Part shown: positions 37,416 to 61,617 of the stretch, one piece after another
How positions within the stretch are numbered: the first letter of the stretch is position 1
Layout of the letters: each line of letters opens with the position of its first letter
Position numbers and translations under genes: made by a program
Assembly: GCA_028284905.1 (NCBI GenBank)
Contig: JANQQU010000043.1
Span: forward strand, 124,001 to 188,000
DNA: 64,000 nucleotides
DNA from: Calditrichia bacterium
GTDB lineage: Bacteria; Calditrichota; Calditrichia; RBG-13-44-9; J075
Direction: 5' to 3'
The notes under the pieces: model-generated
What the model was told of the DNA's origin: nothing
Databases searched by the model: none
What the model saw: only the letters and a program-made list of their open reading frames with translations

Positions 37416-38378
37416 TTATGCAATTGAGCGGAAACGGCCGATTCTTTTTAAATCATCAGCTGAGGATTCATTCTTGTTGTTAGTGGTGATCAGCATACCA
37501 CCGGTTTCCGGATGAATCTCGCAAAAAATGGCCACTTCTTCCGGGGACATGATCATGAAGGCGGTCGAGAGCGCATCAGATAGCGCTGCAGTTGGCGCCA
37601 GTGACCAGGAGGCTGTGATCATACCCTCGACCGGATAGCCGTTGCGAGGATCGATAATGTGCTGTCCTTTCACCAGGCCGGAGCCACTAATGGAAATATT
37701 GGACAGGCGGGTTTCGAATAGGATATCATCGGGACGATGGGGATGACTGAGGGAAATCGGCCAGCCTTCTTTCCCATCCGGTAGACTGCCATGGGCAAGC
37801 ACCGTGCTGCTGCCGCCATGAATAAGATAGTTCTCTATTTCCCATTCGGCAAAAAGGTCCACAATGCAATCAAGTGCATATCCTTTCCCATAGCCGCCGA
37901 GATCGATAGTTAAGGGGGCACTTTTTAAAATGACCGTAAAGGAATCTTCGGCGAGAATTAGATGTTGCAAACCAGTGTGAGAAAGTGCGGTTTCTATTTC
38001 CGTTTCGTTCGGTTGACGCGGAGATTTGTCCGGGTTCCTCCAGCAATTGAGTAATGTGCCGGCAGTAATGTCAAAAACCCCGGCAGTGGCCGCATAAATT
38101 TCCGCACAATGCTTTAGGCAGGCGAAGGCTTCCGGCCCGATCGAAATGACATCCCCGGCAGCTGCATTGTTGATCCGGGCTATATCGCTATTTTCGATAT
38201 AGCGACTGAGCAATAGCTCCAGGCGATCCAGCTCGTCAAAAGCTGCTTGCGCCGCCTGATGGGCATAGAGCTGGTCTGCTTCCGCGATGACCACTTCAAA
38301 GACGGTAGCCATTGCCTTGTGGAGGAATCGATGACAATCTTGCGGCAGGGGATAGCTATGGGGGGATCGGGTATCCAT
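37416..38378 (-). CDS. apbE: FAD:protein FMN transferase
   Basis: A 320-residue ApbE-family flavin transferase, which attaches FMN to Thr/Ser of target proteins such as RNF/NQR subunits and other flavoproteins. Typical patterns: MATVFEVVI near the start, LLSRYIENSDIARINNAAAGD, AGVFDITAGTLLNCW, LGGYGKGYALD (Mg/FAD-binding loop) and HIIDPRNGYPVEG. There is no lipobox or signal peptide, unlike many ApbE proteins, so it may be cytoplasmic. No flavinylation target is evident nearby. Confidence 0.92.
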   Translation of the reverse strand: MDTRSPHSYPLPQDCHRFLHKAMATVFEVVIAEADQLYAHQAAQAAFDELDRLELLLSRYIENSDIARINNAAAGDVISIGPEAFACLKHCAEIYAATAGVFDITAGTLLNCWRNPDKSPRQPNETEIETALSHTGLQHLILAEDSFTVILKSAPLTIDLGGYGKGYALDCIVDLFAEWEIENYLIHGGSSTVLAHGSLPDGKEGWPISLSHPHRPDDILFETRLSNISISGSGLVKGQHIIDPRNGYPVEGMITASWSLAPTAALSDALSTAFMIMSPEEVAIFCEIHPETGGMLITTNNKNESSADDLKRIGRFRSIA

Positions 38379-38490: not shown

Positions 38491-40140
38491 CTACTCGCCT
38501 TTGTTTCGATATTTCTCCCAGAGGTCCTGGCGAATGTAGCCGCGCATTTCTACTCCGGGACGTAGATACATCGCTTCATCAAAAAGTGGTAGATAAAGAT
38601 GGCGCTGTCCCGGTGGCGGTTTGAAGTAAAGCAAATTCAGTAATTCTTTTTCCATTTCAGGGGCGGCTAAAATTAACGGCGCAGTTGGGGCATTTTCCGG
38701 AATTGTCGACCACCAGCCGATGTTTGGGAGCAGTCGGAAATACCAGGGAAAGGGCCAGTAATCATTCCCGGGAAAAATAAATTGAATATGAGTTGCTCCT
38801 GCAGAAGTATCTGTTTGGGCAATGTTATTAATTAATGCAGCGGCTTTCGGCACATCGCTGGTAGGATGGCCATAAACATGGGGATTGGTATTCGTTGCAT
38901 AATCCTGAAAATTTGCCCGGTATGATTGATAACCGAGATGGGTAAATCCAAGTGCGAAAGCGCCCATCAACAGTATCCGTAACCATTGTGGCTGGCAATG
39001 GTGGTAAATCGCCGTTGCACCGATACCGGCAACAATAATTATTGCATGAAAAAAGCAGAGCATGTTCCAGGGCGTTTTGTAGGGTATGAAAGAATAGAAA
39101 AGTGTTAAGAGCAAGGCATACAAAGTGAGAAAACGGGCAATTGTTTGAATACGTTTCGGTAAGCCGTTTTTACGAAAAGCGGCTATTGTGCCAGCTGCTG
39201 CAAGTAGTAGAATTAATGCCTCGCTCCAGATAAACCCATCACCTTTCTGAAAGAAGAAGAGCATGCCGAGGTAATAATACCAGGGATGCACATGCCACTG
39301 ATGTTCAATTCCTTTTTCCAGGTAGGTGCTGAAATAGGTGGTGATCGCATCGGAAATCCCTTGCGGGTTATCCCCAAAGCTGCTGAAGAAAATCCCACTT
39401 ATAAAAAAGAATACTGCAAGAAATGTAACGGAAAATTTAAAAGATAAAGCCGGTTTAACAGAATAGTTGTTTCGTTCCTCTGGAGGAAGTTGCCACCAGA
39501 GCAATCCCCCAGCGGTGATGATGGCAGATAAGGGTAAAACAAAGGTTTCTTTGCTGGTATACATCAAGGCCAGGGCACAGGCAGCAAGGACAGCACTTTG
39601 TAAGCGCGGGCGGGAAAAGTGCGCGATGATTATCAATAAAAATGCACCGCTGAAACAGGCAAAGAGCATCTCCTGAATGTAGTAACGGCTGTAAAAAGTC
39701 ATCGCCGGAGAAAGGGCAATAAGCAAAAGGATTGTTAGCACCGCAAAATTGCCCAGGCGTTTCCGGAGATAAAATGCTTGCAATAATAATAACAAGCCAA
39801 ACAGTGCCGGAATAAATCGCAGAAAACTTTCCGTTACCGCCGATGATTGGGGAATTCCCAACAGTTTTGCAGCGACTAATGTGGCATAGACAAGTGTTGG
39901 TCCATGATATTCATGGGGATCATACCGATATTCTCCGTTCTCCAGCAGATCGACAAATTTAATACCCTGCACGGCTTCGTCTCCGTGGAAGGGACGAATG
40001 TCGTTGGCAGTAAAACGAAAAAGTGCTGCAATGATTAGAATGAAGAGTGAAATGAGAAAAAAGGTGCGGGAGGAAGGATCGGAAAACCGCCCGAAAAGTG
40101 TTCTGTCTCCACGAATATCCGGGCGATTCTCCAAATTCAT
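38491..40140 (-). CDS. Agl23-like / GT39-type membrane glycosyltransferase
   Basis: A 549-residue polytopic membrane protein with about ten hydrophobic segments. After the first helix it has DIRPFHGDEAVQGIKFVDLLENG and EYHGPTLVYATL, the signature I associate with the TIGR03663 family (flippase activity-associated Agl23 proteins, GT39/PMT-like). The acidic HGDEA loop corresponds to the catalytic DE-type region of GT39/GT-C enzymes. It probably transfers a sugar from a lipid-linked donor at the outer face of the inner membrane. Same strand as, but 25 bases after, the discoidin-like gene. Confidence 0.82.
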   Translation of the reverse strand: MNLENRPDIRGDRTLFGRFSDPSSRTFFLISLFILIIAALFRFTANDIRPFHGDEAVQGIKFVDLLENGEYRYDPHEYHGPTLVYATLVAAKLLGIPQSSAVTESFLRFIPALFGLLLLLQAFYLRKRLGNFAVLTILLLIALSPAMTFYSRYYIQEMLFACFSGAFLLIIIAHFSRPRLQSAVLAACALALMYTSKETFVLPLSAIITAGGLLWWQLPPEERNNYSVKPALSFKFSVTFLAVFFFISGIFFSSFGDNPQGISDAITTYFSTYLEKGIEHQWHVHPWYYYLGMLFFFQKGDGFIWSEALILLLAAAGTIAAFRKNGLPKRIQTIARFLTLYALLLTLFYSFIPYKTPWNMLCFFHAIIIVAGIGATAIYHHCQPQWLRILLMGAFALGFTHLGYQSYRANFQDYATNTNPHVYGHPTSDVPKAAALINNIAQTDTSAGATHIQFIFPGNDYWPFPWYFRLLPNIGWWSTIPENAPTAPLILAAPEMEKELLNLLYFKPPPGQRHLYLPLFDEAMYLRPGVEMRGYIRQDLWEKYRNKGE

Positions 40141-41015: not shown

Positions 41016-41636
41016 TTATTTGGCTTTACGCAATAAAGAAACCACCAACAGATGCCCGAAGGCCAGCAAAGTGATAATTAGTGAGCTATATCGATGCACA
41101 TCAAGCATTGCCGCCTGTCCATTTGTGCCCAACAAAGGATACATACTGATCAGAATAGAAAAGATCAGGGGAATACTGCAAAGCAACATGGCCCAGAAAT
41201 ACAGGCGTTGCCAAAATTGCAGGCGCGTATTCTCACTGCGCTGCTTCTTTCCTTTGGGAAACAGTTCATCCGCAGATAGTTGCTGGCGCTGGGCCCATAG
41301 TAACGCGAGAAATGCCGCAGATAATCCGAATATCGGAGCGGCAACAAGATGTACTAACAGCAAAAAGCCGGAAAGATGATGACCGAGAAAAACCACCGGG
41401 GCAAAGCCGCTGATAATCAATAACAGCATGGAGAAAAATCCAAGACGGTAAAGCCAGAGACGCATCAATGAACGATCACTAAAACTGCGTTGGGAAAATA
41501 CCGCGCGGGTTTGCCCGAGAAAGAGGCGCCACTGCTCAACTAACCAACTGCCAAAGTTGTCATAACGGGGATCCCTGCTAAAAAATACCCAGAGGAGAAT
41601 TCCCAGAAAAACGATAATGGATAAAAATCTGAACAT
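41016..41636 (-). CDS. Membrane b-type cytochrome-like protein
   Basis: A 206-residue protein with an N-terminal helix (4-20) and four more membrane segments (~62-82, 90-113, 145-165, 183-201). Histidines sit inside helices in a haem-b-like arrangement: H86/H87 and H96 near one helix pair, H181 and H195 (14 apart) in the last helix. I do not recognise an exact family; it recalls small quinol-interacting b subunits such as those of formate dehydrogenase or thiosulfate reductase. The neighbour immediately upstream encodes a heptahaem cytochrome c, so a quinone-linked electron transfer pair is a reasonable inference. Confidence 0.65.
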   Translation of the reverse strand: MFRFLSIIVFLGILLWVFFSRDPRYDNFGSWLVEQWRLFLGQTRAVFSQRSFSDRSLMRLWLYRLGFFSMLLLIISGFAPVVFLGHHLSGFLLLVHLVAAPIFGLSAAFLALLWAQRQQLSADELFPKGKKQRSENTRLQFWQRLYFWAMLLCSIPLIFSILISMYPLLGTNGQAAMLDVHRYSSLIITLLAFGHLLVVSLLRKAK

Positions 41637-41684: not shown

Positions 41685-43718
41685 TTAATCCTTCTCCATA
41701 CGATCTATTAATTGGGAGAGCATTCGTCCAACGAATATTAGAATCACCCCGGAAAGGATAATGGTAATTGCAATCATCAGCCACTTGAAGATCGGACGAA
41801 CATAGAAGGACATCGCAAAAATCCGGGAATATAAAGCGCCGGTATCATTGAATGCAGTCATGGATTTATTCGTAGCGTTGTTGGCAAATGTCGGGCTGAC
41901 CGGCACATCGCCAAAATAGATCGGTGCATCCGGTGAGTGGCAGTCGTTGCAACCCCGCACGCCTAAAGATTGCGCAGCCGGGCGCACATCATGGCCAATT
42001 GCCCAGGAATATGCTTTTGCTGCCGGATGAGCATCGGTGAGAAGCTGATTCCGCAGGCTGACCCGGTAAAGCTTGCCGGCGTTAATGAAAACCGGAATTG
42101 TAGTGCTGTCCAGTTTGGTCAACTCGCCGAGGACTTCCTGGATCATCGCTTCATCCAGCTGCGACCAAACCGGTTTGTTGATCGGCACTGTTTCCGATTC
42201 ATCAGGCGTGACTGCTAATTCTTCTACTTCGGTAGTATCAATTGCAGTTGCCAGTGAATCGAGCGCTGCCAGGCTATCTGCAATGGCAGTGGCGATCGAA
42301 TCTGCCCGGGCGATTGAATCTGCCAGCGCTGTTGCTACGGCCGCACGATCGGCGAGAATACGATCGATAACCGGACGAACTGTTTCAGTAGGCATTGGGC
42401 TCACTTTACCATCGCCCCCGAGAACGACGGTGCCCCAAAAGGAAGGCCAAAAAAGTTTGTGAGGGGCGATTTTACCATCGCTGCCTCGGACGAAAACCGG
42501 GGCGTAAATATCCGGCATAGCTTCATCGGATTTGTCGACACCATGAGTGCCAAGGGCATGCGCACGGGATGTTTTCACCCGTGGGGCATTATCCTCCGGC
42601 CAGGACCCGGTATGGCAGGAGGTGCAGCTCATTTTCTCAAAGTGGATGGTGGGAATACCGTCATGCGCCGGAATCGGCGCTCCCAAGCGACCGACAAGCG
42701 GGGCCGAGCCATCTTCGTTGGGAATATGACATCCCTCGCAGGTAAAAGCAGCCCGGGCCGGTTCGTTGGTTAATTCTGCTTCTCCTTCAAAACCGCGAAT
42801 CATTTGATGATCCAGGCCATTGCGATGGCAATCCACGCACATCATGCCGGCGGCAAGGTGGACATCATCTTCGGCTTCCCAGCGTTCTTGTTCTGGCTGA
42901 ACGGTTTTAGTGGAGTGGCAATAATAACAGCGTTCGTTGGATACTTTCCGAACGACATCAAAAAACACTTCATTCTTCTCGTTAAAACGGGTTTCGTCGT
43001 AGGTGACGGATGGTGGGATTGCTTTAGCATTATCCGGGTCAGTGCCGTAATAGATGTCGTAATTGTCAGGCATGGATCTCGCGGAACCTTCCACTTTTGC
43101 AAAACCACTGGTTGCCGCAACGGCCCAACGGAAATTTTGCTTCACGGTTTGTTTGGCATATTCTGCCTGGTCGTGCGCGGCTTCTGCATCGTGGCAACTC
43201 ATGCAATTCGCTTCCAGCGCTCCGGAAACCATCCAGCGCATCGCATTTTCTACATCATGATGCGTTTCGTTCTCCCCAACACTGCCACCGGGCATATGCC
43301 GCCCGAAATGGCTAACAAAATCCAGAGCGCTCATGCCAACATCAGCGGGCTTAAAAGTGCCCGGCCAGTCGCGCATGGTGAGCGGGATTTGAGTGGCTGT
43401 TGTCCAATCCACGTAAATCCAGGGTTGTCCGCGCCGGCCTTCTGCAATGCTGTCCAGTCCGGCATTAAAATGCCAGCCCTCGGTTATCTTGTCATAATTA
43501 TGACATTCCCCGCAGGTATAACGGGTAGAGTAGGGGAGCAGCGGTTGATCGTCGGGGCGAATGACGCCTTCATGCTCATCATACAGCTTGAGCACATGGA
43601 CCGGAATCGCCCGGCTACCATCACTCTCATCACCCAGCATTGGTTCCTCCTGAGCGAATATTGACAGCGCGAGAAACAGGCTCAGTAAAAGTATTTTAAA
43701 GATCTGAAAAACATTCAT
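41685..43718 (-). CDS. Heptahaem cytochrome c with C-terminal membrane anchor
   Basis: A 677-residue exported cytochrome with signal peptide ~4-22. Seven CXXCH haem c sites are visible in order: CGECH (69-73), CMSCH, CYYCH, CVDCH, CEGCH, CTSCH and, after a long gap, CNDCH. A single helix near the C-terminus (FKWLMIAITIILSGVILIFV) anchors it. Between sites 6 and 7 is an Ala/Asp/Ser-rich helical stretch (~450-500) with repeats such as ADSIARADSIATAIADSLAALDS. GAGGAAAC before the ATG. Part of a predicted respiratory unit with the b-type protein; the substrate is unknown. Confidence 0.88.
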   Translation of the reverse strand: MNVFQIFKILLLSLFLALSIFAQEEPMLGDESDGSRAIPVHVLKLYDEHEGVIRPDDQPLLPYSTRYTCGECHNYDKITEGWHFNAGLDSIAEGRRGQPWIYVDWTTATQIPLTMRDWPGTFKPADVGMSALDFVSHFGRHMPGGSVGENETHHDVENAMRWMVSGALEANCMSCHDAEAAHDQAEYAKQTVKQNFRWAVAATSGFAKVEGSARSMPDNYDIYYGTDPDNAKAIPPSVTYDETRFNEKNEVFFDVVRKVSNERCYYCHSTKTVQPEQERWEAEDDVHLAAGMMCVDCHRNGLDHQMIRGFEGEAELTNEPARAAFTCEGCHIPNEDGSAPLVGRLGAPIPAHDGIPTIHFEKMSCTSCHTGSWPEDNAPRVKTSRAHALGTHGVDKSDEAMPDIYAPVFVRGSDGKIAPHKLFWPSFWGTVVLGGDGKVSPMPTETVRPVIDRILADRAAVATALADSIARADSIATAIADSLAALDSLATAIDTTEVEELAVTPDESETVPINKPVWSQLDEAMIQEVLGELTKLDSTTIPVFINAGKLYRVSLRNQLLTDAHPAAKAYSWAIGHDVRPAAQSLGVRGCNDCHSPDAPIYFGDVPVSPTFANNATNKSMTAFNDTGALYSRIFAMSFYVRPIFKWLMIAITIILSGVILIFVGRMLSQLIDRMEKD

Positions 43719-52521: not shown

Positions 52522-53880
52522 TTACATCAATTTGAAGCCACCATAATACTTCTTGTCCAGAAAGGCATTGGCTTCATCATGATTGGTGAACTTCATATTT
52601 TCGTGATCCCATTCGAGAACGGTGTTGTCCTTCTGAATCTGCATGGCGATGTTGCCGAGCAGCATCATTTCTGTTAACAGGCCGGCATATTCGAAATTGG
52701 ACTCAGCCTGAGTGTTGGTTTTAATTGCTTCAATCCACTCCTTGTAAACGCCCGGTGAGCGTTTGAGGGTTTTCTCGGGACGCTTAAATTCTTTCATTTT
52801 CGTTTCCGGGATAATCCGGGGATTGGAGCCATAAGTGCCGCACATAAGTTTGCCTTTATCGCCAACAAACAATACGCCTCCATCGCCGTCTCCCATGCGA
52901 CGTCCCGGCTCCAGCTCTTCCGGCCGCTGCGGCGCCAGGCCACCATCATACCAGTGGAATTTAACTGCCGGCATGCCTTCCCGGGCGGGGAAGTCCAGGT
53001 GGACAGTCGATGCCATTGGATAACTGTCTTTGGAGAAGGGGGTAGAGCTTGCGGAAACCCGATTAGGTGCACGCAGCTTTAAAGCCCAGAATGGCTGATC
53101 AAGGATATGAGCGCCCATGTCGCCTAATGCGCCGGTGCCGAAATCCAGCCAGCCACGCCAGCTAAACGGAGCGTATTTTGGATGATAAGGACGAAACTTT
53201 GCCGGCCCCAGCCATAGATTCCAGTCTAAAGTACGTGGTACGGAAGGAACTTCTCTCGGGGCATCAATGCCCTGCGCCCAGATGGGGCGATTGGTCCAGG
53301 CATGCACTTCCCGCACATCACCAATTGCGCCGGCCCAAATCCATTCGTTAATCAGGCGGGCGCCCTCGCTAGCGTGCCCCTGGTTGCCCATTTGCGTAAT
53401 AACTTTCATCTCTCTGGCAAGCATGCGCAGGTGCCGGGCTTCCCGGACAGTGTGGGTTAATGGCTTTTGAACAAATGCATGTTTCCCCATACGCATTGCC
53501 ATGGAAGCTGCAACAGCATGGGTATGATCCGGCGTACTAATTACAACTGCATCGATACTCTTGTGGTTCTCATTGAGCATTTTCCGAAAGTCTATATACT
53601 TCTTAGCTTTTTTATATTTGTCCGCAGTTTTATTCAATTCATTCTCATCAACATCGCATAAGGCATAAATGTTTTCCGAACTGACGCCTTTTGTGTCGGA
53701 ACGCCCTTTGCCGCCAACCCCGATACAGGCGATATTTAACTTGTCGCTGGGTGGACTGTAACCCGGGCCGCCAATTACGTGACGGGGAACAATCATAATA
53801 CCGGTGGCAGCAAGTGCTGTTTTGCCGAGAAATTCCCGGCGCGAGATTCCTGGTGATTTCGATTTTTTCTGATTTTTCAT
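52522..53880 (-). CDS. Tat-exported Gfo/Idh/MocA oxidoreductase 4
   Basis: A 452-residue oxidoreductase, leader [21 protein letters not shown] (Tat). Nucleotide loop [10 protein letters not shown]. The EKP motif reads Q-K-P here (VQKPLTHTV). The [15 protein letters not shown] and [16 protein letters not shown] segments are typical of the exported subgroup. It lies 18 bases before the cytoplasmic paralogue on the same strand. Confidence 0.9.
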
Positions 53881-53943: not shown

Positions 53944-55263
53944 TTAGGTGAGGCTGCCCGGTACCGGTACGTTCTTTTCCACAGCGACGGCGCCCATATG
54001 GTAATCTTCCGGTCCTAAGCGCATTTCGTTGCTCATCGCCGCTTCCCAGGTGATTTCTTGTCCGGTATAAGCCGACATACGCCCGATAATTGCGCTCAAT
54101 GTGGAAATCGCTGTCGCTTCCGCTTCTACGACCTGTTTTCCGGTGCGAATCGCAGTAACCAGATCGATGTGCTCCTGCACGTATGGCGAAATCGCGACAA
54201 CATCGGTAGATTCACCTTGCTCATTTTTCGGGTATTCATATTGCCAGACAATATTGCCTTCCATATCGTAAATTGTGTTTTGGCAGTTTGTATATCCTTT
54301 GGTGCCGCGTATCAATTCCGATACATTATTGACGCAACCATTAATCTGACGGCACATACTGTGTACATGAACATCGTTCTCGTAGGTGAAGTCGATATCA
54401 AAAAAGTCGAATTGATCTCCGGTGACGCGGCGATGACGGGCGCCAAAGCCAACAGCAGCGACGGGATGCTTGCCGGTAAACCAATTGACGACATCAATGT
54501 TATGAATGTGTTGCTCTACGATATGATCCCCGGATAGCCAACACCAGTTCACCCAGTCGCGAATCATGTATTCCATCTCGGACCATTCCGGCTGTTGGGT
54601 TTTATACCAAAGCTGGCTTTGATTCCAGTAACAATTGGCCGCGACGATGTCGCCAATCGCTCCCTGACGAACACGGCGATATGTTTCGACATAATCCCGC
54701 TGATGGCGACGTTGGGTACCGGTGCCGACACACAACCCTAAAGATTCTGCCCGACGGGAAGATGCGATGATCGAGCGAGCACCGGCGGGATCTACCGCTA
54801 CCGGTTTCTCCATGAATACATGCTTTTTCGCAGCGACGGCGGCCGCAAAATGCTCCGGACGAAAATGAGGAGGGGTAGCGAGAATGACTAATTCTATATT
54901 GGCATCCAGGGCGTGCTTAAATCCATCGAACCCGGCAAATTGCATGCTTGCCGGAATTTCCACACCTTTTTCTTCTTTCAACTTTTTCAGGCAGTCATCA
55001 ATGCGATCCTGAAAGACATCTGCGACAGCGACTATTTGTAAGTCTGGCCCGGCATCAAGAAAATTCAGTGCTGCACCAGTGCCGCGTCCCCCGCATCCAA
55101 CAAGCGCTGCCCGAATGGGTGCACCGGCGGGGGCAATGTCCAATAACGGTGGCAGATTAAGATCTACAGCTTCTTCGCCACTACCACCACAACCTGTCAA
55201 CAAGATGCCAGCTGTCGCAGCAGCACCAATGCCAAGGAATTCTCTTCTTGAAAAATCTTTCAT
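53944..55263 (-). CDS. Gfo/Idh/MocA oxidoreductase 5, Tat lipoprotein
   Basis: A 439-residue oxidoreductase. Leader FSRREFLGIGAAATAGILLTGC is a Tat signal ending in a lipobox (LLTGC), so the enzyme is probably membrane-attached. Nucleotide loop VGCGGRGTGAA, EKP motif MEKPVAVDP, and DHIVEQHIHNIDVVNW in the active-site region. Other paralogues in this cluster lack the lipobox. Cofactor and substrate are not identified. Confidence 0.9.
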   Translation of the reverse strand: MKDFSRREFLGIGAAATAGILLTGCGGSGEEAVDLNLPPLLDIAPAGAPIRAALVGCGGRGTGAALNFLDAGPDLQIVAVADVFQDRIDDCLKKLKEEKGVEIPASMQFAGFDGFKHALDANIELVILATPPHFRPEHFAAAVAAKKHVFMEKPVAVDPAGARSIIASSRRAESLGLCVGTGTQRRHQRDYVETYRRVRQGAIGDIVAANCYWNQSQLWYKTQQPEWSEMEYMIRDWVNWCWLSGDHIVEQHIHNIDVVNWFTGKHPVAAVGFGARHRRVTGDQFDFFDIDFTYENDVHVHSMCRQINGCVNNVSELIRGTKGYTNCQNTIYDMEGNIVWQYEYPKNEQGESTDVVAISPYVQEHIDLVTAIRTGKQVVEAEATAISTLSAIIGRMSAYTGQEITWEAAMSNEMRLGPEDYHMGAVAVEKNVPVPGSLT

Positions 55264-55527: not shown

Positions 55528-57078
55528 TTATTTTTCAGTAACTGAATATTCGCAAACCACCCGAAAACCGACATCAGTGCAGTCGGAATACCACCAGAGG
55601 CTTTTCGGCATTTGCGGATCGGTTTTTTGCCAGTCAGCCTCCCGGGTAAAATCTCTCCGGCTAATCCGTAAATCAATCGGAGTGCTTTTGTAGGAACCGC
55701 CACGGATGACGTAATTGTTGCCACTGACCGGGCCGGTAGGGTTGTAAATGGTCATTCCGCCGGGATAATCCTGGTAAGTTGTCGGGTGATACCAATCGCT
55801 GCAAAATTCCCGCACGTTGCCGAGCATGTGCAGCAGGCCAAACCCATTTGCCTGAACGTCTTCCGGAAGGGCTGTTTGGTTACCGCTGTTTCCGCGAAAG
55901 TTGGTGTACTTGCCAATTTCATTCGACGGTTCGGAAAACAGTCCAACCCAGAATCCCGCCGGCTGAAAATCTGCAGGGGTTCCCGGGAAAAAGTAATCTC
56001 CCGTGCTATTTGCACGGCAAGCGTATTCCCATTCTGCCTCAGTTGGTAAACGATACTGTTTACCAGTCACCTCTGAAAGCCACTCACAATAGCGTTGGGC
56101 GGCGTAGTGAGTCATTGTAATTGCCGGACGTTTGCCCCGTCCCCATCCCTGGTCAGGATTTCCATAGGGTGGGGTAGGGCCGGTAGATACGGCAACACCA
56201 TTCCCGGAACGGGCATTAACCTGGTCGCCACTACGGCCTTCGGTAACCGTTTGGTTGTAAAATGCCATGTACTCATCCCAACTCACTTCAATTTTGCTCA
56301 TCCAAAAGCGGCTTAATTCAATGGCCCGTTGTGGACCCTCATCCTTTTGGAAACCGGAAGCATTGGGAGCGCTACCAATCTGAAAGGCGCCTTCGGGTAT
56401 CGCGATCATTTCAAAACTGACGTTGGTGCCGGGTATTTTTTCTGTGAAATTCTCAAAGGACTCGACTTTGGTCGCTTCGGTAAAAAGCGCACCAGTCGAA
56501 TTCCCGGAAGCCGTTGTTGAGGTACTGTTACTGCGCTCCGGGCGAAAATGGCCGACATCAATATGACAGTTGAGGCAATGTAACTCCGCAGCTTTTGCTT
56601 CATAATGGAGGTGGGCATCGAGCCCTTTCTGGGAGATGTCTCTTGGAAATAGGTTCTGATGACAGTTTAAACAGGCGCTTTCAAATACATGAGAGATCGC
56701 ATAATCCCGGCCTCGTTTCTCCGCCCAATTGATTTCATCCGTATTGGTAAATAAAGTCCCATAAACATCCCGCGCACCGGTGCGGACTTTCTCCGTATAA
56801 TGGACAAATTCTCCTTTCGGCGGTAGATGACAGTCTACGCAGCCGACGACAACACCACTACGGGTGTCAAAGTGCGGCCCTTGTTTCCAGCTTAAAGTTG
56901 CATGGGGATGCACGTGGCAGGATTGGCAAAATTCATTACTGGAAGTTGCTTCCGAAGCGGTTTGTAAACTGCCGAAAAGTATGCCGCCTAGCAAGATAAA
57001 CAAATACGGTATTAACCAGCGGGGTCTTTTGCGCTTTGTTTTTACCTGTGTTTTTTTCGATACGACATCAGTTGCCAT
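55528..57078 (-). CDS. Tetrahaem NapC/NrfH-type cytochrome fused to SUMF1-like domain
   Basis: A 516-residue protein with a single N-terminal anchor helix (21-38) followed by four haem c sites: C51-C54-H, C80-C83-H, C136-C139-H and C168-C171-H, laid out as in NapC/NrfH/NirT quinol dehydrogenases (CQSCHVHPH; DCHLPPKGEF...Y.EK.R.GARDV). After a Ser/Thr-rich linker (182-198) comes a formylglycine-generating-enzyme-like (SUMF1) domain, ~217-514: AIPEGAFQIGS, EVSWDEYMAFYN, YRLPTEAEWEYACR, MLGNVREFCSDWYHP, VIRGGSYKS and DVGFRVVCEY. The canonical FGE Cys pair is not evident, so a non-FGE activity or binding role is likely. This fusion may link quinol oxidation to a periplasmic partner. Confidence 0.85.
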   Translation of the reverse strand: MATDVVSKKTQVKTKRKRPRWLIPYLFILLGGILFGSLQTASEATSSNEFCQSCHVHPHATLSWKQGPHFDTRSGVVVGCVDCHLPPKGEFVHYTEKVRTGARDVYGTLFTNTDEINWAEKRGRDYAISHVFESACLNCHQNLFPRDISQKGLDAHLHYEAKAAELHCLNCHIDVGHFRPERSNSTSTTASGNSTGALFTEATKVESFENFTEKIPGTNVSFEMIAIPEGAFQIGSAPNASGFQKDEGPQRAIELSRFWMSKIEVSWDEYMAFYNQTVTEGRSGDQVNARSGNGVAVSTGPTPPYGNPDQGWGRGKRPAITMTHYAAQRYCEWLSEVTGKQYRLPTEAEWEYACRANSTGDYFFPGTPADFQPAGFWVGLFSEPSNEIGKYTNFRGNSGNQTALPEDVQANGFGLLHMLGNVREFCSDWYHPTTYQDYPGGMTIYNPTGPVSGNNYVIRGGSYKSTPIDLRISRRDFTREADWQKTDPQMPKSLWWYSDCTDVGFRVVCEYSVTEK

Positions 57079-57261: not shown

Positions 57262-58209
57262 CTAAAATGCATCGCTTTTGCGATAGGCTTCGATAACCGC
57301 CATTTCGCCGTCTTTGCCGGGCATGCTATTTCCGTGTTCCATGCCGACGATGCCCTGGAATCCTTTCGCATGAATGTGCTTAAAGACATTGTAGTAATTG
57401 ATTTCCCCGGTGGTCGGTTCTTTCCGGCCAGGATTATCACCCACCTGGAAATAAGCAATCTCATCCCAGGCAGTATCGATGTTAGGAATAAGATTCCCTT
57501 CTGTGATTTGCTGATGATAGAGGTCATTGAGGATTTTACAAGAAGGGCTGTCGACCGCCTTGCAAATCAGGTAAGCCTGGGGAATTTTGGTAAGAAAAAG
57601 TCCGGGGTGGTCCCGCCAGGCATTCAGCGGTTCCAGGACCATAATCAGGCCGGCTTTTTCGCAGACATCGGCGCACCATTTCAGGTTTTCGATAACATTG
57701 CTGGTTTGATAATCCCACTCCAAATGAGTGCTGAATTTTCCGGGGACAATCGTTGTCCAGGTGGCATTTACCCGCTTTGCCGTTTCTACCGCTTTCTGCA
57801 TCCGCTGGACGAGCATTTCGCGAATATTGGTTTCATTTAACACAAAAGTTGTCGCGCCGAATTCCGCATAGGCAACAAATACCCCCATTTCCATTTTCAG
57901 GCGGGACATTTCTTTGGCGATCTGTTCCTGCACGGCGACATCCCGTCCCATCATGCCATTATCCTCCAGGGCGCGAAAACCCTGGTCGGCCATGAACTTT
58001 AGCTGATCGACCAGGTCGTCCCCCGCAGATTTTTTGAACATGCCAAAATGAGGGGCATATTTTAGATTGAAGGACTTATTGCCGGATGAAGTCGACTGCG
58101 CGCTCGCACTTAAACTGCCACCGAAAGACGCTGCCGCTACCGCTGCAGTGGATTTCCCCAGAAATTGCCGTCGACTCATTTGTTCTCCCGATTTTCCGTG
58201 CTTTGCCAT
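57262..58209 (-). CDS. Tat-exported xylose-isomerase-like TIM barrel (hydroxypyruvate isomerase-like)
   Basis: A 315-residue protein with Tat leader MSRRQFLGKSTAAVAAASFGG, followed by a TIM barrel of the AP endonuclease 2/xylose isomerase type: FKKSAGDDLVDQLKFMADQGFRALEDNG, MVLEPLNAW, CKILNDLYHQQ, NIDTAWDEIAYFQVGDNPGR and GIVGMEHGNSMPGKDGE. The last motif places it near hydroxypyruvate isomerases. Acid residues E/D/H in the barrel may bind a divalent metal. ATG at 58209 has AGGAT nearby. In this cluster it probably isomerises or epimerises keto sugars; export by Tat is less usual for this family. Confidence 0.85.
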   Translation of the reverse strand: MAKHGKSGEQMSRRQFLGKSTAAVAAASFGGSLSASAQSTSSGNKSFNLKYAPHFGMFKKSAGDDLVDQLKFMADQGFRALEDNGMMGRDVAVQEQIAKEMSRLKMEMGVFVAYAEFGATTFVLNETNIREMLVQRMQKAVETAKRVNATWTTIVPGKFSTHLEWDYQTSNVIENLKWCADVCEKAGLIMVLEPLNAWRDHPGLFLTKIPQAYLICKAVDSPSCKILNDLYHQQITEGNLIPNIDTAWDEIAYFQVGDNPGRKEPTTGEINYYNVFKHIHAKGFQGIVGMEHGNSMPGKDGEMAVIEAYRKSDAF

Positions 58210-58254
58210 AGCTATCCTATCTTGCAAGTTATATGATTGCATTTTTTTACAGCA

Positions 58255-61200
58255 CTAGTCACTTGACTGATCGCTGCTATAAGCATACTTGATTCCCGGT
58301 AGATGATTGCCTTCAGTATCGCGAACCCGTAAACAGGCACCCCAGCCACCACCTTTGTTGACAACTTTGAAAAGCAGTTGATTCCAGCCCTCCTGAAGCT
58401 CAACGGTAACGATGTCATCGCCAGGCGTTACGCCACGGCCAACATCGTTTTCATGTACTAGTGCGTCGTTTAACCAGATTTTCACGCCATCGTCGCTGCC
58501 AATTTCCAGGCGGGCATTTGCCGCTGCTTTAGCATAGATGCTTGTACGCAAATAAGCGACTTTCCGGCTGCTGCCAAACCGTTCGTTTAGTATTACCAGC
58601 CAGGAGTTCTCCGCGTTTTCCGGCCGCAATTTTTCCCACTGAACGGTGTCTCGGTCGGTTGTCTCCGGTGCAAAGGCGTCAACAAATAAATCGCCGCTAT
58701 CCCTGGTGTATGGCCCGGCCATCTCCCACTGGGTAACAAAATCTTCATACTTTTCAAGAATTCTGATCACTGCTTTGGCCCGCTCAATATCCGAAGCGCG
58801 AGCATCTTTGGCAATGATGCCATCCATCAGGGCGCGGGTTTTTGCCGGTATTTCGTTGGCAATTGTTTCGCAGATGGTCAGGGCGGTCGCCGTGGCTGAT
58901 GCATTTGTTGCCGGATCATCCATGTAAGATGTGGCCAGATCCAATCCTACCGGCGTTTTCAGGTGCTGCAGTTCCGACAAGGCCCGCTGGCGGTCCGCAG
59001 TGGTTTTCGCGATGGAAAATGCATCGGTGAACAATACTTCCGTCTCGCTCAATTCCCGCAGGTCAACCATGGCGGCCAGACGAACAAATCCGCGGAATGC
59101 CAGGGCACGGGCTACTGCTGCCGTATCAGTCTCGGCAATGCCCTTTAACAGCATCATTGGCTGATCATTCGGCCAGCCGGCCAGTCCCCGGATCGCGGCA
59201 ACACGGGCTTGCGGAGATTCTGCTAACGCTGCTTCCAGCACTTCAAGAGACGCCGGATCGCCAATTCTTCCAAGAACATCAAGAAAATCCGCGCGGGTTT
59301 CCGAGTCGGTTACCTGGGGAAGCGCTGCCAGCAACATGTGATTGCCAACTGAGGGATTCTCCAGACGATTTACAGTACCGACAATTGCCTGGATCAAAGC
59401 GGCGCGTTCCCGTTTACCGTCGCTTGCTTTTTGTAAATTATTAATGAGTCCAGCCAGGTCATCCTTGCCGGCTGAGTTCTTCAGGACCTTATAAGCTTCT
59501 GTACGTACTTTGCTATCCGGTCCACTCGTCTCCGTTAATAATGCCTGGGAAATATCTGGTGCCTGACGTTCACCAAGTGCTTGTATAATAACTACTTTCT
59601 CCGCTGTTTCAGCATTTGGCAGACGGGTTTTTAATACATCGTTTACTTGCGGCGATTGAAGGCGATGCAAACTGCTTTCGGCCAGCTTTTTCACCGCACC
59701 ACGGTTATTCAAAATAAACGTGGTCAATAAAGGAACCGTTTTTTCATTACCCGTGATAGCAAGCGTATTCAGCGCCGCCCGGCGAATTTCTGTAGATTCA
59801 CTTTGCAAAGCTGCAGCGGTCGTTTCGTATGCGGCAGTGTCATTTGGGCGGTTTTGTAAGGCGCTTAGCAGCTGGATTTGCGCGGATTCCGGTAAAGAGG
59901 AAAACTGGGCGAGCAGATTGTCGATAGATTGTGATTCCGGTAAATCGCGGATCGTGGCAATTACCGCGCGCTTTTCAAGATCATCACCTTCGTTGAATAA
60001 TTCCACAATTACGTCAGATACGTTTTCCCCGGCAGTGGCGATTAGTCCCCGCGTTGCAGCATATTTTGCCTGTCCACCAATCCCGGCATCTTTTAATTGA
60101 CGATAATAGCCATGGGCTTTTTTGAGATCGCCGGCGGCGGCAACAGCATCCACGCAGTTAATATACGCGTCCACAAAAGCTGCCTGTTGCAATCCTACGC
60201 TGGCTATTAATGATTTAAACAATGGCTTGATGGATTTCTTATGGGCAATATTGCCGAGCGCTGTTGCTGCGGACATTTGCAGAAGGGAATCAGAACTGTT
60301 CAATAGCTTGTTCAGTGGCTTAACTGCCTTTGAATCTTTCCGCCAGCCAAGAGAGTTGGCGAGTGCAATTTGTTCTGCCCCAGTTGCTTTTTTCAGCGCT
60401 TTGCGAAGGGCCTTGTCCGCTGCTGGTGAAGCCATGCGTTCCAGGGCGAAACTAGCCATCGAAAATGTATCAGAAGATTTTAGTAAATCAGCCAGAACAG
60501 AAACACTTTTTTTGCTACCCCGATAGCTCAGTTCTTCACAAATAAACTGTTTACCGGCCAGTGTTGCGTCCGAGCGAAGGAAGTCAATAAAGCGGTTCTC
60601 AATCTCTTTCTGTAAATCGGCATTCTTACCGGCATAACGGACAAACTCTTTCACTAGTAACTGTGTGGCCAGAGAATTACCATAATCGAAGGTTTTTAGC
60701 TCGTGTAAAGCGGAATCCAATTGTACGATATGCAGTTTCTTTGCAGGTTGCAAGGGGAGGGGAGTGGTTGCAGCCGGGAGGTCGCCTAGCGCAAATTGAA
60801 TGCCGGCAAGATAGTGCCGCAAAATAACCGGATGCCAATAGATATGATCATTATGGCCGAGAGAGCTGTAAAAAACTCGCCCTTTACCAAAATCCCGCAC
60901 CCAGCTAATCGGAATGTCTTTGTCGGTAAAGCGGAGTCCGCTGACATCCAAATTCACCGCCTCGGTCATATCCAATGCTACCAAAACGCGGCAATTGTCG
61001 CGGATATTTGCCGGCTTAATGCGATATATTTCGTCATTAATATCGAAGGTTTTCTTCGGGAACATTTGTGTTAGCGGATGACCATAATCTTCAACAATGC
61101 CTGCCCAGGTGCCGTCCGCAGTCCAGGGATGTTGATCAAACTGTCCGCCAATCATTTGCGAGGCTTCCAGCCAGTTGTAAAAATTATCCGTAGCGGCATG

Positions 61201-61617
61201 AATTCCCACAACGCCTTTGCCGCTCTTCACGAAGGCCATCAGGTTTGCCCGGTGGGTTGGCTCCTGAAACGACAACTTGGTTGTGTTGAGAAAACAAACG
61301 GCATCGAAGCGGGAGAGTTGTGCTTCATTAAACATGGCCATATCGTCACTAACCGTCGCCTGATAAGCGCCGGTTTTTTCTCCCAGGCGCTGTAAGGCAG
61401 CAATACCTGTGGGGATAGAGCTATGATTAAATCCTTCGACCCGATGGAAAACGAGTAATTGTCTTGGCGCTTCGGGAGTTGCGTAAGCACTGTCCGGCAA
61501 AGCGGCTTCGATTTTATTCAAATTCTCTTCAGACACCTGCGAGATGCCCTGGGATTGAATAAAAAATAACAACAATACTATAAGGACGCTGGCATTTACA
61601 AATAAAGATTTCTGCAT
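58255..61617 (-). CDS. ThuA-domain protein with HEAT repeats and PA14-like module
   Basis: An 1120-residue exported protein (signal ~8-22). A ThuA-like (trehalose utilisation/glutamine amidotransferase-fold) domain covers ~50-280: LVFHRVEGFNHSSI, AVCFLNTT, GVVGIHAATDNFYNW, MIGGQFDQHPW, PISWVRDFGKGRVFYSSLGHND. HEAT repeats occupy ~330-930 (LANSLGWRKDSKAVKPL, AATALGNIAHKKSIKPL). The C-terminal module (~960-1115) has EIGSDDGVKIWLND, GVTPGDD and NKGGGWGACLRV, close to the central module of the DUF1080 lipoprotein at 45173. ThuA proteins are associated with glycoside catabolism. No catalytic residue is assigned. Confidence 0.86.
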   Translation of the reverse strand: MQKSLFVNASVLIVLLLFFIQSQGISQVSEENLNKIEAALPDSAYATPEAPRQLLVFHRVEGFNHSSIPTGIAALQRLGEKTGAYQATVSDDMAMFNEAQLSRFDAVCFLNTTKLSFQEPTHRANLMAFVKSGKGVVGIHAATDNFYNWLEASQMIGGQFDQHPWTADGTWAGIVEDYGHPLTQMFPKKTFDINDEIYRIKPANIRDNCRVLVALDMTEAVNLDVSGLRFTDKDIPISWVRDFGKGRVFYSSLGHNDHIYWHPVILRHYLAGIQFALGDLPAATTPLPLQPAKKLHIVQLDSALHELKTFDYGNSLATQLLVKEFVRYAGKNADLQKEIENRFIDFLRSDATLAGKQFICEELSYRGSKKSVSVLADLLKSSDTFSMASFALERMASPAADKALRKALKKATGAEQIALANSLGWRKDSKAVKPLNKLLNSSDSLLQMSAATALGNIAHKKSIKPLFKSLIASVGLQQAAFVDAYINCVDAVAAAGDLKKAHGYYRQLKDAGIGGQAKYAATRGLIATAGENVSDVIVELFNEGDDLEKRAVIATIRDLPESQSIDNLLAQFSSLPESAQIQLLSALQNRPNDTAAYETTAAALQSESTEIRRAALNTLAITGNEKTVPLLTTFILNNRGAVKKLAESSLHRLQSPQVNDVLKTRLPNAETAEKVVIIQALGERQAPDISQALLTETSGPDSKVRTEAYKVLKNSAGKDDLAGLINNLQKASDGKRERAALIQAIVGTVNRLENPSVGNHMLLAALPQVTDSETRADFLDVLGRIGDPASLEVLEAALAESPQARVAAIRGLAGWPNDQPMMLLKGIAETDTAAVARALAFRGFVRLAAMVDLRELSETEVLFTDAFSIAKTTADRQRALSELQHLKTPVGLDLATSYMDDPATNASATATALTICETIANEIPAKTRALMDGIIAKDARASDIERAKAVIRILEKYEDFVTQWEMAGPYTRDSGDLFVDAFAPETTDRDTVQWEKLRPENAENSWLVILNERFGSSRKVAYLRTSIYAKAAANARLEIGSDDGVKIWLNDALVHENDVGRGVTPGDDIVTVELQEGWNQLLFKVVNKGGGWGACLRVRDTEGNHLPGIKYAYSSDQSSD

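Follow-up and report, generated by a model that had tools for sequence, protein, structure and literature searches.

A tetrahaem cytochrome-SUMF1 fusion as a candidate flavocytochrome partner of exported Gfo/Idh/MocA oxidoreductases

The gene at positions 55528-57078 (minus strand) of the window, the 64,000-nucleotide stretch of a Calditrichia bacterium genome analysed here, encodes a protein of 516 amino acids in which a NapC/NrfH tetrahaem cytochrome is joined to a SUMF1 domain. We propose, with a probability of roughly six in ten, that this protein is a membrane-anchored flavocytochrome linking Tat-exported, NAD(P)-containing sugar dehydrogenases of the Gfo/Idh/MocA family to the quinone pool. 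In the proposed mechanism, the SUMF1 domain would act as the scaffold of an FMN that the flavin transferase ApbE links to Thr302 by a phosphoester bond. A sugar or glycoside would be oxidised, probably at its C3, by the exported dehydrogenase encoded at 53944-55263, and the hydride would be stored on the tightly held nicotinamide of this Gfo/Idh enzyme before passing to the SUMF1-bound FMN. The FMN would split the electron pair and send single electrons through the four NapC/NrfH haems to (mena)quinone. A flavin is the usual device between a two-electron nicotinamide and a one-electron haem. In other lineages, the pair of SUMF1 protein and Gfo/Idh would work either with a separate acceptor or, as in Verrucomicrobiota and one Pirellulales MAG, with a fused PSCyt1 cytochrome. 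That all of these belong to a widespread and undescribed extracytosolic module, in which an ApbE-flavinylated SUMF1 protein takes hydride from the nicotinamide of an exported Gfo/Idh/MocA enzyme and feeds interchangeable cytochromes, seems to us slightly better than an even bet.

The open reading frame starts with ATG and contains no internal stops, and a single copy of the fusion is present in the 93 contigs (8.55 Mb) of the window genome. Both Pfam domains score above their curated cut-offs, Cytochrom_NNT at residues 26-181 (56536-57003, E 7e-28) and FGE-sulfatase at residues 223-477 (55648-56412, E 8.6e-39), and the two-domain polypeptide first noticed in a sequence-only reading is thereby borne out. 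An N-terminal transmembrane helix, the presumed membrane anchor, is predicted at residues 22-45 (56944-57015) in an AlphaFold2 model and is hydrophobic across the aligned members; confidence in this model is low for the haem domain and for the motif loop discussed below. Near the C-terminus, residues 483-506 (55561-55632) carry W-x(3)-DPQ-x-PKS-x-WW followed by GFR, the hallmark of the SUMF1 subfamily. All of these features lie on the minus strand.

The partner oxidoreductase and its neighbourhood

Directly downstream of the fusion is the gene for a Tat-exported Gfo/Idh/MocA oxidoreductase with a lipobox-like LLTGC sequence (53944-55263, minus strand). Of the 17 genomes that carry the fusion, 16 have a homologue of it immediately after the fusion gene and in the same orientation, and in the seventeenth (locus L016) the contig ends 378 bp past the fusion gene. 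Among 66 aligned partners the twin arginine is present in every sequence, and the nucleotide-binding Gly, the EKP motif and the H..D pair are conserved. The same oxidoreductase was found with an HMM at 61 of 80 loci of the SUMF1 subfamily and at 0 of 37 other SUMF1 loci (p 1e-16, a value that is indicative only, since the controls were drawn from the window's class and the test loci from several phyla). Standalone and PSCyt1-fused relatives are mostly encoded upstream of this oxidoreductase in several other phyla, and Tat-exported Gfo/Idh/MocA proteins are found across Bacteroidota, Planctomycetota and Verrucomicrobiota. The association with exported Gfo/Idh/MocA clusters that was first suspected from the window is thus strongly supported.

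Several further genes of the cluster are likewise on the minus strand. A second Tat-exported Gfo/Idh/MocA protein (52522-53880) has as its closest NCBIfam model the BT_2158 glycoside 3-dehydrogenase, with 569 bits against a cut-off of 750. Additionally, the cluster encodes a Tat-exported, isomerase/lyase-like TIM barrel of the AP_endonuc_2 family (57262-58242), whose link to the SUMF1 module recurs in other genomes, a HEAT-repeat protein with a C-terminal 3-keto-disaccharide hydrolase domain (PF06439, 45173-48529), and a protein in which Pfam finds ThuA together with HEAT repeats (58255-61617). Overall, more than one Tat-exported Gfo/Idh protein is encoded in the cluster, along with a pair of AP_endonuc_2 TIM barrels, ThuA, the 3-keto-disaccharide hydrolase domain and a transporter of nucleoside type, and the window thus brings together the trio of 3-keto-glycoside pathway clusters (exported Gfo/Idh, PF06439 and TIM barrel). 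The TIM barrel, PF06439, fusion and Gfo/Idh genes follow one another in a single run at loci L090/L143 (genome G038), and in genome G003 the gene directly upstream of the fusion encodes an alcohol/glucose dehydrogenase of the PQQ type that also has a cytochrome c domain (L141 11459-13672). This gene setting fits oxidative glycoside catabolism. Elsewhere in the window, 41685-43718 (minus strand) encodes a 677-aa protein with seven CxxCH motifs and a weak MtrC-like match, adjoining a cytochrome b561-like gene (41016-41636); the two may form another system for extracytosolic electron transfer within the cluster.

The flavinylation-like motif and ApbE

Members of the SUMF1 subfamily share a loop, directly ahead of a conserved PY or PW, with the consensus D-[AG]-[VI]-[ST]-[RG]-[PA]-[TS], which is comparable to the ApbE target motif D-x-x-[ST]-G-A-[ST] (PMC12052999, PMC10722498). 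Over 83 sequences, the columns hold D in 78, [AG] in 71, [VI] in 73 and [ST] in 70, then R or G, then P in 67 or A in 15, and finally [TS] in all 83. A loose form of the motif is present at this site in 68 of the 83 subfamily members; among 23 SUMF1 proteins outside the subfamily, taken from the genome and class of the window, none has it. Between 12 and 14 of the 83 relatives match Dxx[ST][GS]A[TS] exactly or nearly so, and the exact forms fall in separate clades: DAVSGAT in L014, L026, L029, L037 and L075, DAISGAT in L015, L017, L034 and L067, DGVSGAT in L025 and L036, and DAVTGAT in L091 and its phylum. Pro replaces the Ala of the known motif in most members, among them the window copy, and Arg often replaces its Gly; the flavinylation literature consulted reports nothing on the tolerance of ApbE for these Pro and Arg variants. 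In an AlphaFold model of the L026 protein (pLDDT 92.5) the motif sits in a well-predicted loop.

The window copy reads A-V-S-T-G-P-T at residues 296-302 (56173-56193, minus strand) and, by comparison with the published motif (PMC12052999), is a putative flavinylation site with Thr302 as the candidate FMN-bearing residue. Its first position is Ala in place of the motif Asp, and Val in the nearest relative. In one study the Asp-to-Ala change had only a minor effect (PMC12052999), whereas the Asp is described as essential in another (PMC10722498). The Gfo/Idh partner was also considered as the ApbE target and rejected, the motif being found in 0 of 66 members.

Genes of the ApbE family (PF02424, confirmed on exemplars) are present at 30 of 80 subfamily loci vs 0 of 37 control SUMF1 loci (p 1.7e-6, again indicative only for the reason given above). 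They lie no more than 200 bp from the SUMF1 gene in 20 of the 26 loci examined. A different ApbE target within the same loci was considered and rejected, as no other ORF carries the canonical motif at 25 of these 26; L086 is the exception. A SUMF1-Gfo/Idh-ApbE run is found in Pedobacter (L051, L074), and in three genomes of the phylum of G045, a distant carrier of the fusion, ApbE lies upstream of a DAVTGAT fusion that is followed by Gfo/Idh. Not every fusion has an ApbE gene as its immediate neighbour; only some do. The window's own ApbE-family flavin transferase, which has no clear signal peptide, is encoded about 17 kb downstream of the fusion (37416-38378, minus strand), its homologue in G003 is 3.5 kb from the fusion of that genome, and two further ApbE proteins with lipoprotein-like signals are encoded in the window genome. 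ApbE is encoded in all 14 fusion genomes checked, which adds little weight since ApbE serves other proteins too.

Two side observations were made on the ApbE genes. The window ApbE adjoins a 549-aa membrane protein with no Pfam match (38491-40140, minus strand), and a similar pair is present in G003 (L141 14852-17442). Moreover, ApbE-adjacent SUMF1 proteins have non-canonical forms of the motif, mostly R-P, and Flavobacteria with the canonical S-G-A-T (among L024-L037) have no adjacent ApbE. The pattern looks as though an ApbE of its own were required for the altered motif, with the phylum of G045 as the exception.

The alternative that survives best, which we consider unlikely, is that the SUMF1 domain is solely a docking or adaptor module that holds Gfo/Idh against the cytochrome, carries no flavin and uses the motif-like loop as a docking surface. 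Non-enzymatic structural proteins of the SUMF1 fold are known, and one such, GldK/PorK, is among the matches of the domain; linkage to Gfo/Idh (61/80) exceeds that to ApbE (30/80), and most members depart from the exact ApbE motif. Docking alone would nonetheless leave unexplained both the ApbE linkage and the exact DAVSGAT and DAVTGAT sequences in several separate clades, and it gives no account of how electrons would pass from a two-electron nicotinamide to a one-electron haem. The SUMF1 domain may also dock to the oxidoreductase, as suggested in the sequence-only reading, which would be compatible with a flavin on the same domain.

The cytochrome and SUMF1 domains among their relatives

The four CxxCH motifs of the window protein (C51, C80, C136 and C168) are invariant in 14 of 14 aligned fusion members, as are exactly four additional histidines (57, 69, 156 and 177), and all four haems could therefore be bis-His. 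Alignment with NrfH places His57 at the position of NrfH M49 in all 14 members, and K97 (kept in 13 of 14) and D104 (14 of 14) at K82 and D89; in NrfH, M49 is the haem-1 ligand, and K82 and D89 are quinol-site residues. An NrfH serving nitrite reductase was considered and rejected, as the NrfH equivalog model TIGR03153 scores 76.5 bits, below its cut-off of 134.2, there is no NrfA-type neighbour, and in 16 of 17 genomes a Gfo/Idh gene follows the fusion directly.

The retention of these quinol-site residues, and the fact that NapC/NrfH proteins usually oxidise quinol, would also suit the opposite direction of flow, with electrons from menaquinol passing through the haems and the flavin to Gfo/Idh and reducing a keto-sugar or other periplasmic acceptor. 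Menaquinol (about -70 mV) is, however, a poor donor for NAD (about -320 mV), and the usual interpretation of 3-keto-sugar clusters is a catabolic one; we judge flow in this direction to be improbable.

At the position of the FGE Cys pair, the window protein reads GGSYKSTPIDLRISR; the corresponding segment of human FGE is GGSYMCHRSYC. The copper-binding pair is absent in the alignment from 83 of 83 subfamily relatives and, because it is replaced in all of them, the SUMF1 domain is, on sequence grounds, no longer a formylglycine-generating enzyme, and FGE-type modification of sulfatases was rejected. The fold itself is that of FGE: the SUMF1 part matches the PDB profile 6s07 at 2.4e-32, and a PDB fold search with the window model gave PvdO (5HHA) as the best match and FGE as another. 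This resemblance speaks for an enzyme that truly generates formylglycine, or modifies proteins oxidatively in some other way, with the cytochrome as its electron sink, a reading made very improbable by the missing Cys pair and by a constant neighbour that is a sugar oxidoreductase. Of the earlier idea that the SUMF1 domain receives electrons for an oxidative modification, a redox role is supported, and an FGE-like enzyme with a Cys/metal site is not.

The fusion is uncommon, as first supposed, yet not unique, and a search for the same architecture found it in 17 genomes, that of the window included. A pattern scan of genome contigs yielded 10 relatives over the full length, from MAGs of KSB1 and Bacteroidales/Bacteroidia, and whole-genome searches found the fusion in G003 of the window's family, G038 of its class and G045, which is kin only at the level of domain. 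All four examined genomes of G045's phylum carry the fusion, as do 3 of the 40 genomes examined in the window's phylum. Fourteen fusion members align end to end, the window protein and others with 44-56% identity to it; the whole-genome search gave 58% for the G003 protein. In a tree of 83 SUMF1 domains, which included 14 of the 17 known tetrahaem fusions, these 14 form a single clade with support 100/99. That the fusion is a functionless chance joining or an assembly artefact of this one genome is hardly credible, given an intact reading frame and recurrence in 17 genomes as one clade with conserved haem and His residues and a conserved neighbour.

The remaining loci from the pattern scan match the SUMF1 part only, at 33-39% identity. 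Standalone SUMF1 relatives of about 310-420 aa are found in groups that include Planctomycetota, Bacteroidota and Acidobacteriota; Verrucomicrobiota and one Pirellulales MAG have relatives of 560-680 aa with PSCyt1-like cytochrome domains (an assignment confirmed with Pfam for one member, L070). Since the PSCyt1 fusions fall apart from the tetrahaem clade in the tree, cytochromes have joined this SUMF1 line at least twice. The cultured Akkermansia muciniphila CSUN-56 has a haem-free relative with a DSVTQPT motif (L028 7725-8927) and no Gfo/Idh partner within the stretch examined. Aside from the fusion, the window's genome (G000) has four consecutive long SUMF1 ORFs of 700-1000 aa on contig C62 (8941-17668), which are outside the fusion subfamily.

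Significance and comparison with known systems

If the flavocytochrome reading is correct, a covalent flavin on a SUMF1 domain wired to cytochromes would offer an answer to how the trapped nicotinamide of exported Gfo/Idh/MocA enzymes is reoxidised where there is no free NAD. It would extend the ApbE substrates by a further fold and couple extracytoplasmic NAD-dependent chemistry to the quinone pool in a new manner. It would also give a function to SUMF1 proteins that family annotation would label as formylglycine-generating or sulfatase-modifying, and provide a genomic signature by which glycoside oxidation linked to respiration could be recognised, both in bacteria without cultures and in cultured Pedobacter (L051, L074) and the like. 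SUMF1 is unmentioned in the flavinylation papers examined, whose substrate classes are others, and the words "sulfatase", "formylglycine" and "Idh" are absent from the main texts of PMC8238504 and PMC11334425. No paper was found that links flavinylation to SUMF1, ApbE to FGE-sulfatase or NapC/NrfH to formylglycine-generating enzyme, and wider searches gave no title or abstract on a SUMF1-cytochrome-Gfo/Idh system; these searches lay largely outside subscription journals and preprints, and the novelty is therefore provisional.

The SUMF1 domain shares its fold and family (Pfam PF03781) with FGE and differs from it in belonging to a subfamily that lacks the copper Cys pair and has the DPQ-x-PKS-x-WW signature and the ApbE-like motif loop. 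PvdO, a dihydropyoverdine dehydrogenase for which we know of no flavin, also has the SUMF1 fold, but the window protein is fused to a cytochrome and has other partners. Like the NapC/NirT quinol dehydrogenases and NrfH (structure 2J7A), the fusion has a single N-terminal anchor, four CxxCH motifs and the quinol-site Lys and Asp; unlike them, it has His57 for the Met ligand of haem 1, a fused SUMF1 domain and no NrfA or NapA as immediate neighbour. The LacABC lactose/glycoside 3-dehydrogenase of Caulobacter and Pedobacter (PMC9007349) likewise represents periplasmic glycoside 3-oxidation with DUF1080 3-keto hydrolases nearby, although with a different dehydrogenase system from the Gfo/Idh/MocA enzymes and SUMF1-cytochrome partners described here. 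The ApbE-flavinylated carriers described to date belong to the classes FMN_bind, DUF2271, DUF3570, Flavodoxin_4 and FMN_red (PMC8238504, PMC11334425). The exported SUMF1 proteins resemble them in their Dxx[ST]GA[ST]-like motif, in the ApbE of their clusters and in the redox enzymes and cytochromes that adjoin them, and differ in that SUMF1 is outside the described classes and that R/G-P replaces G-A in the majority of members.
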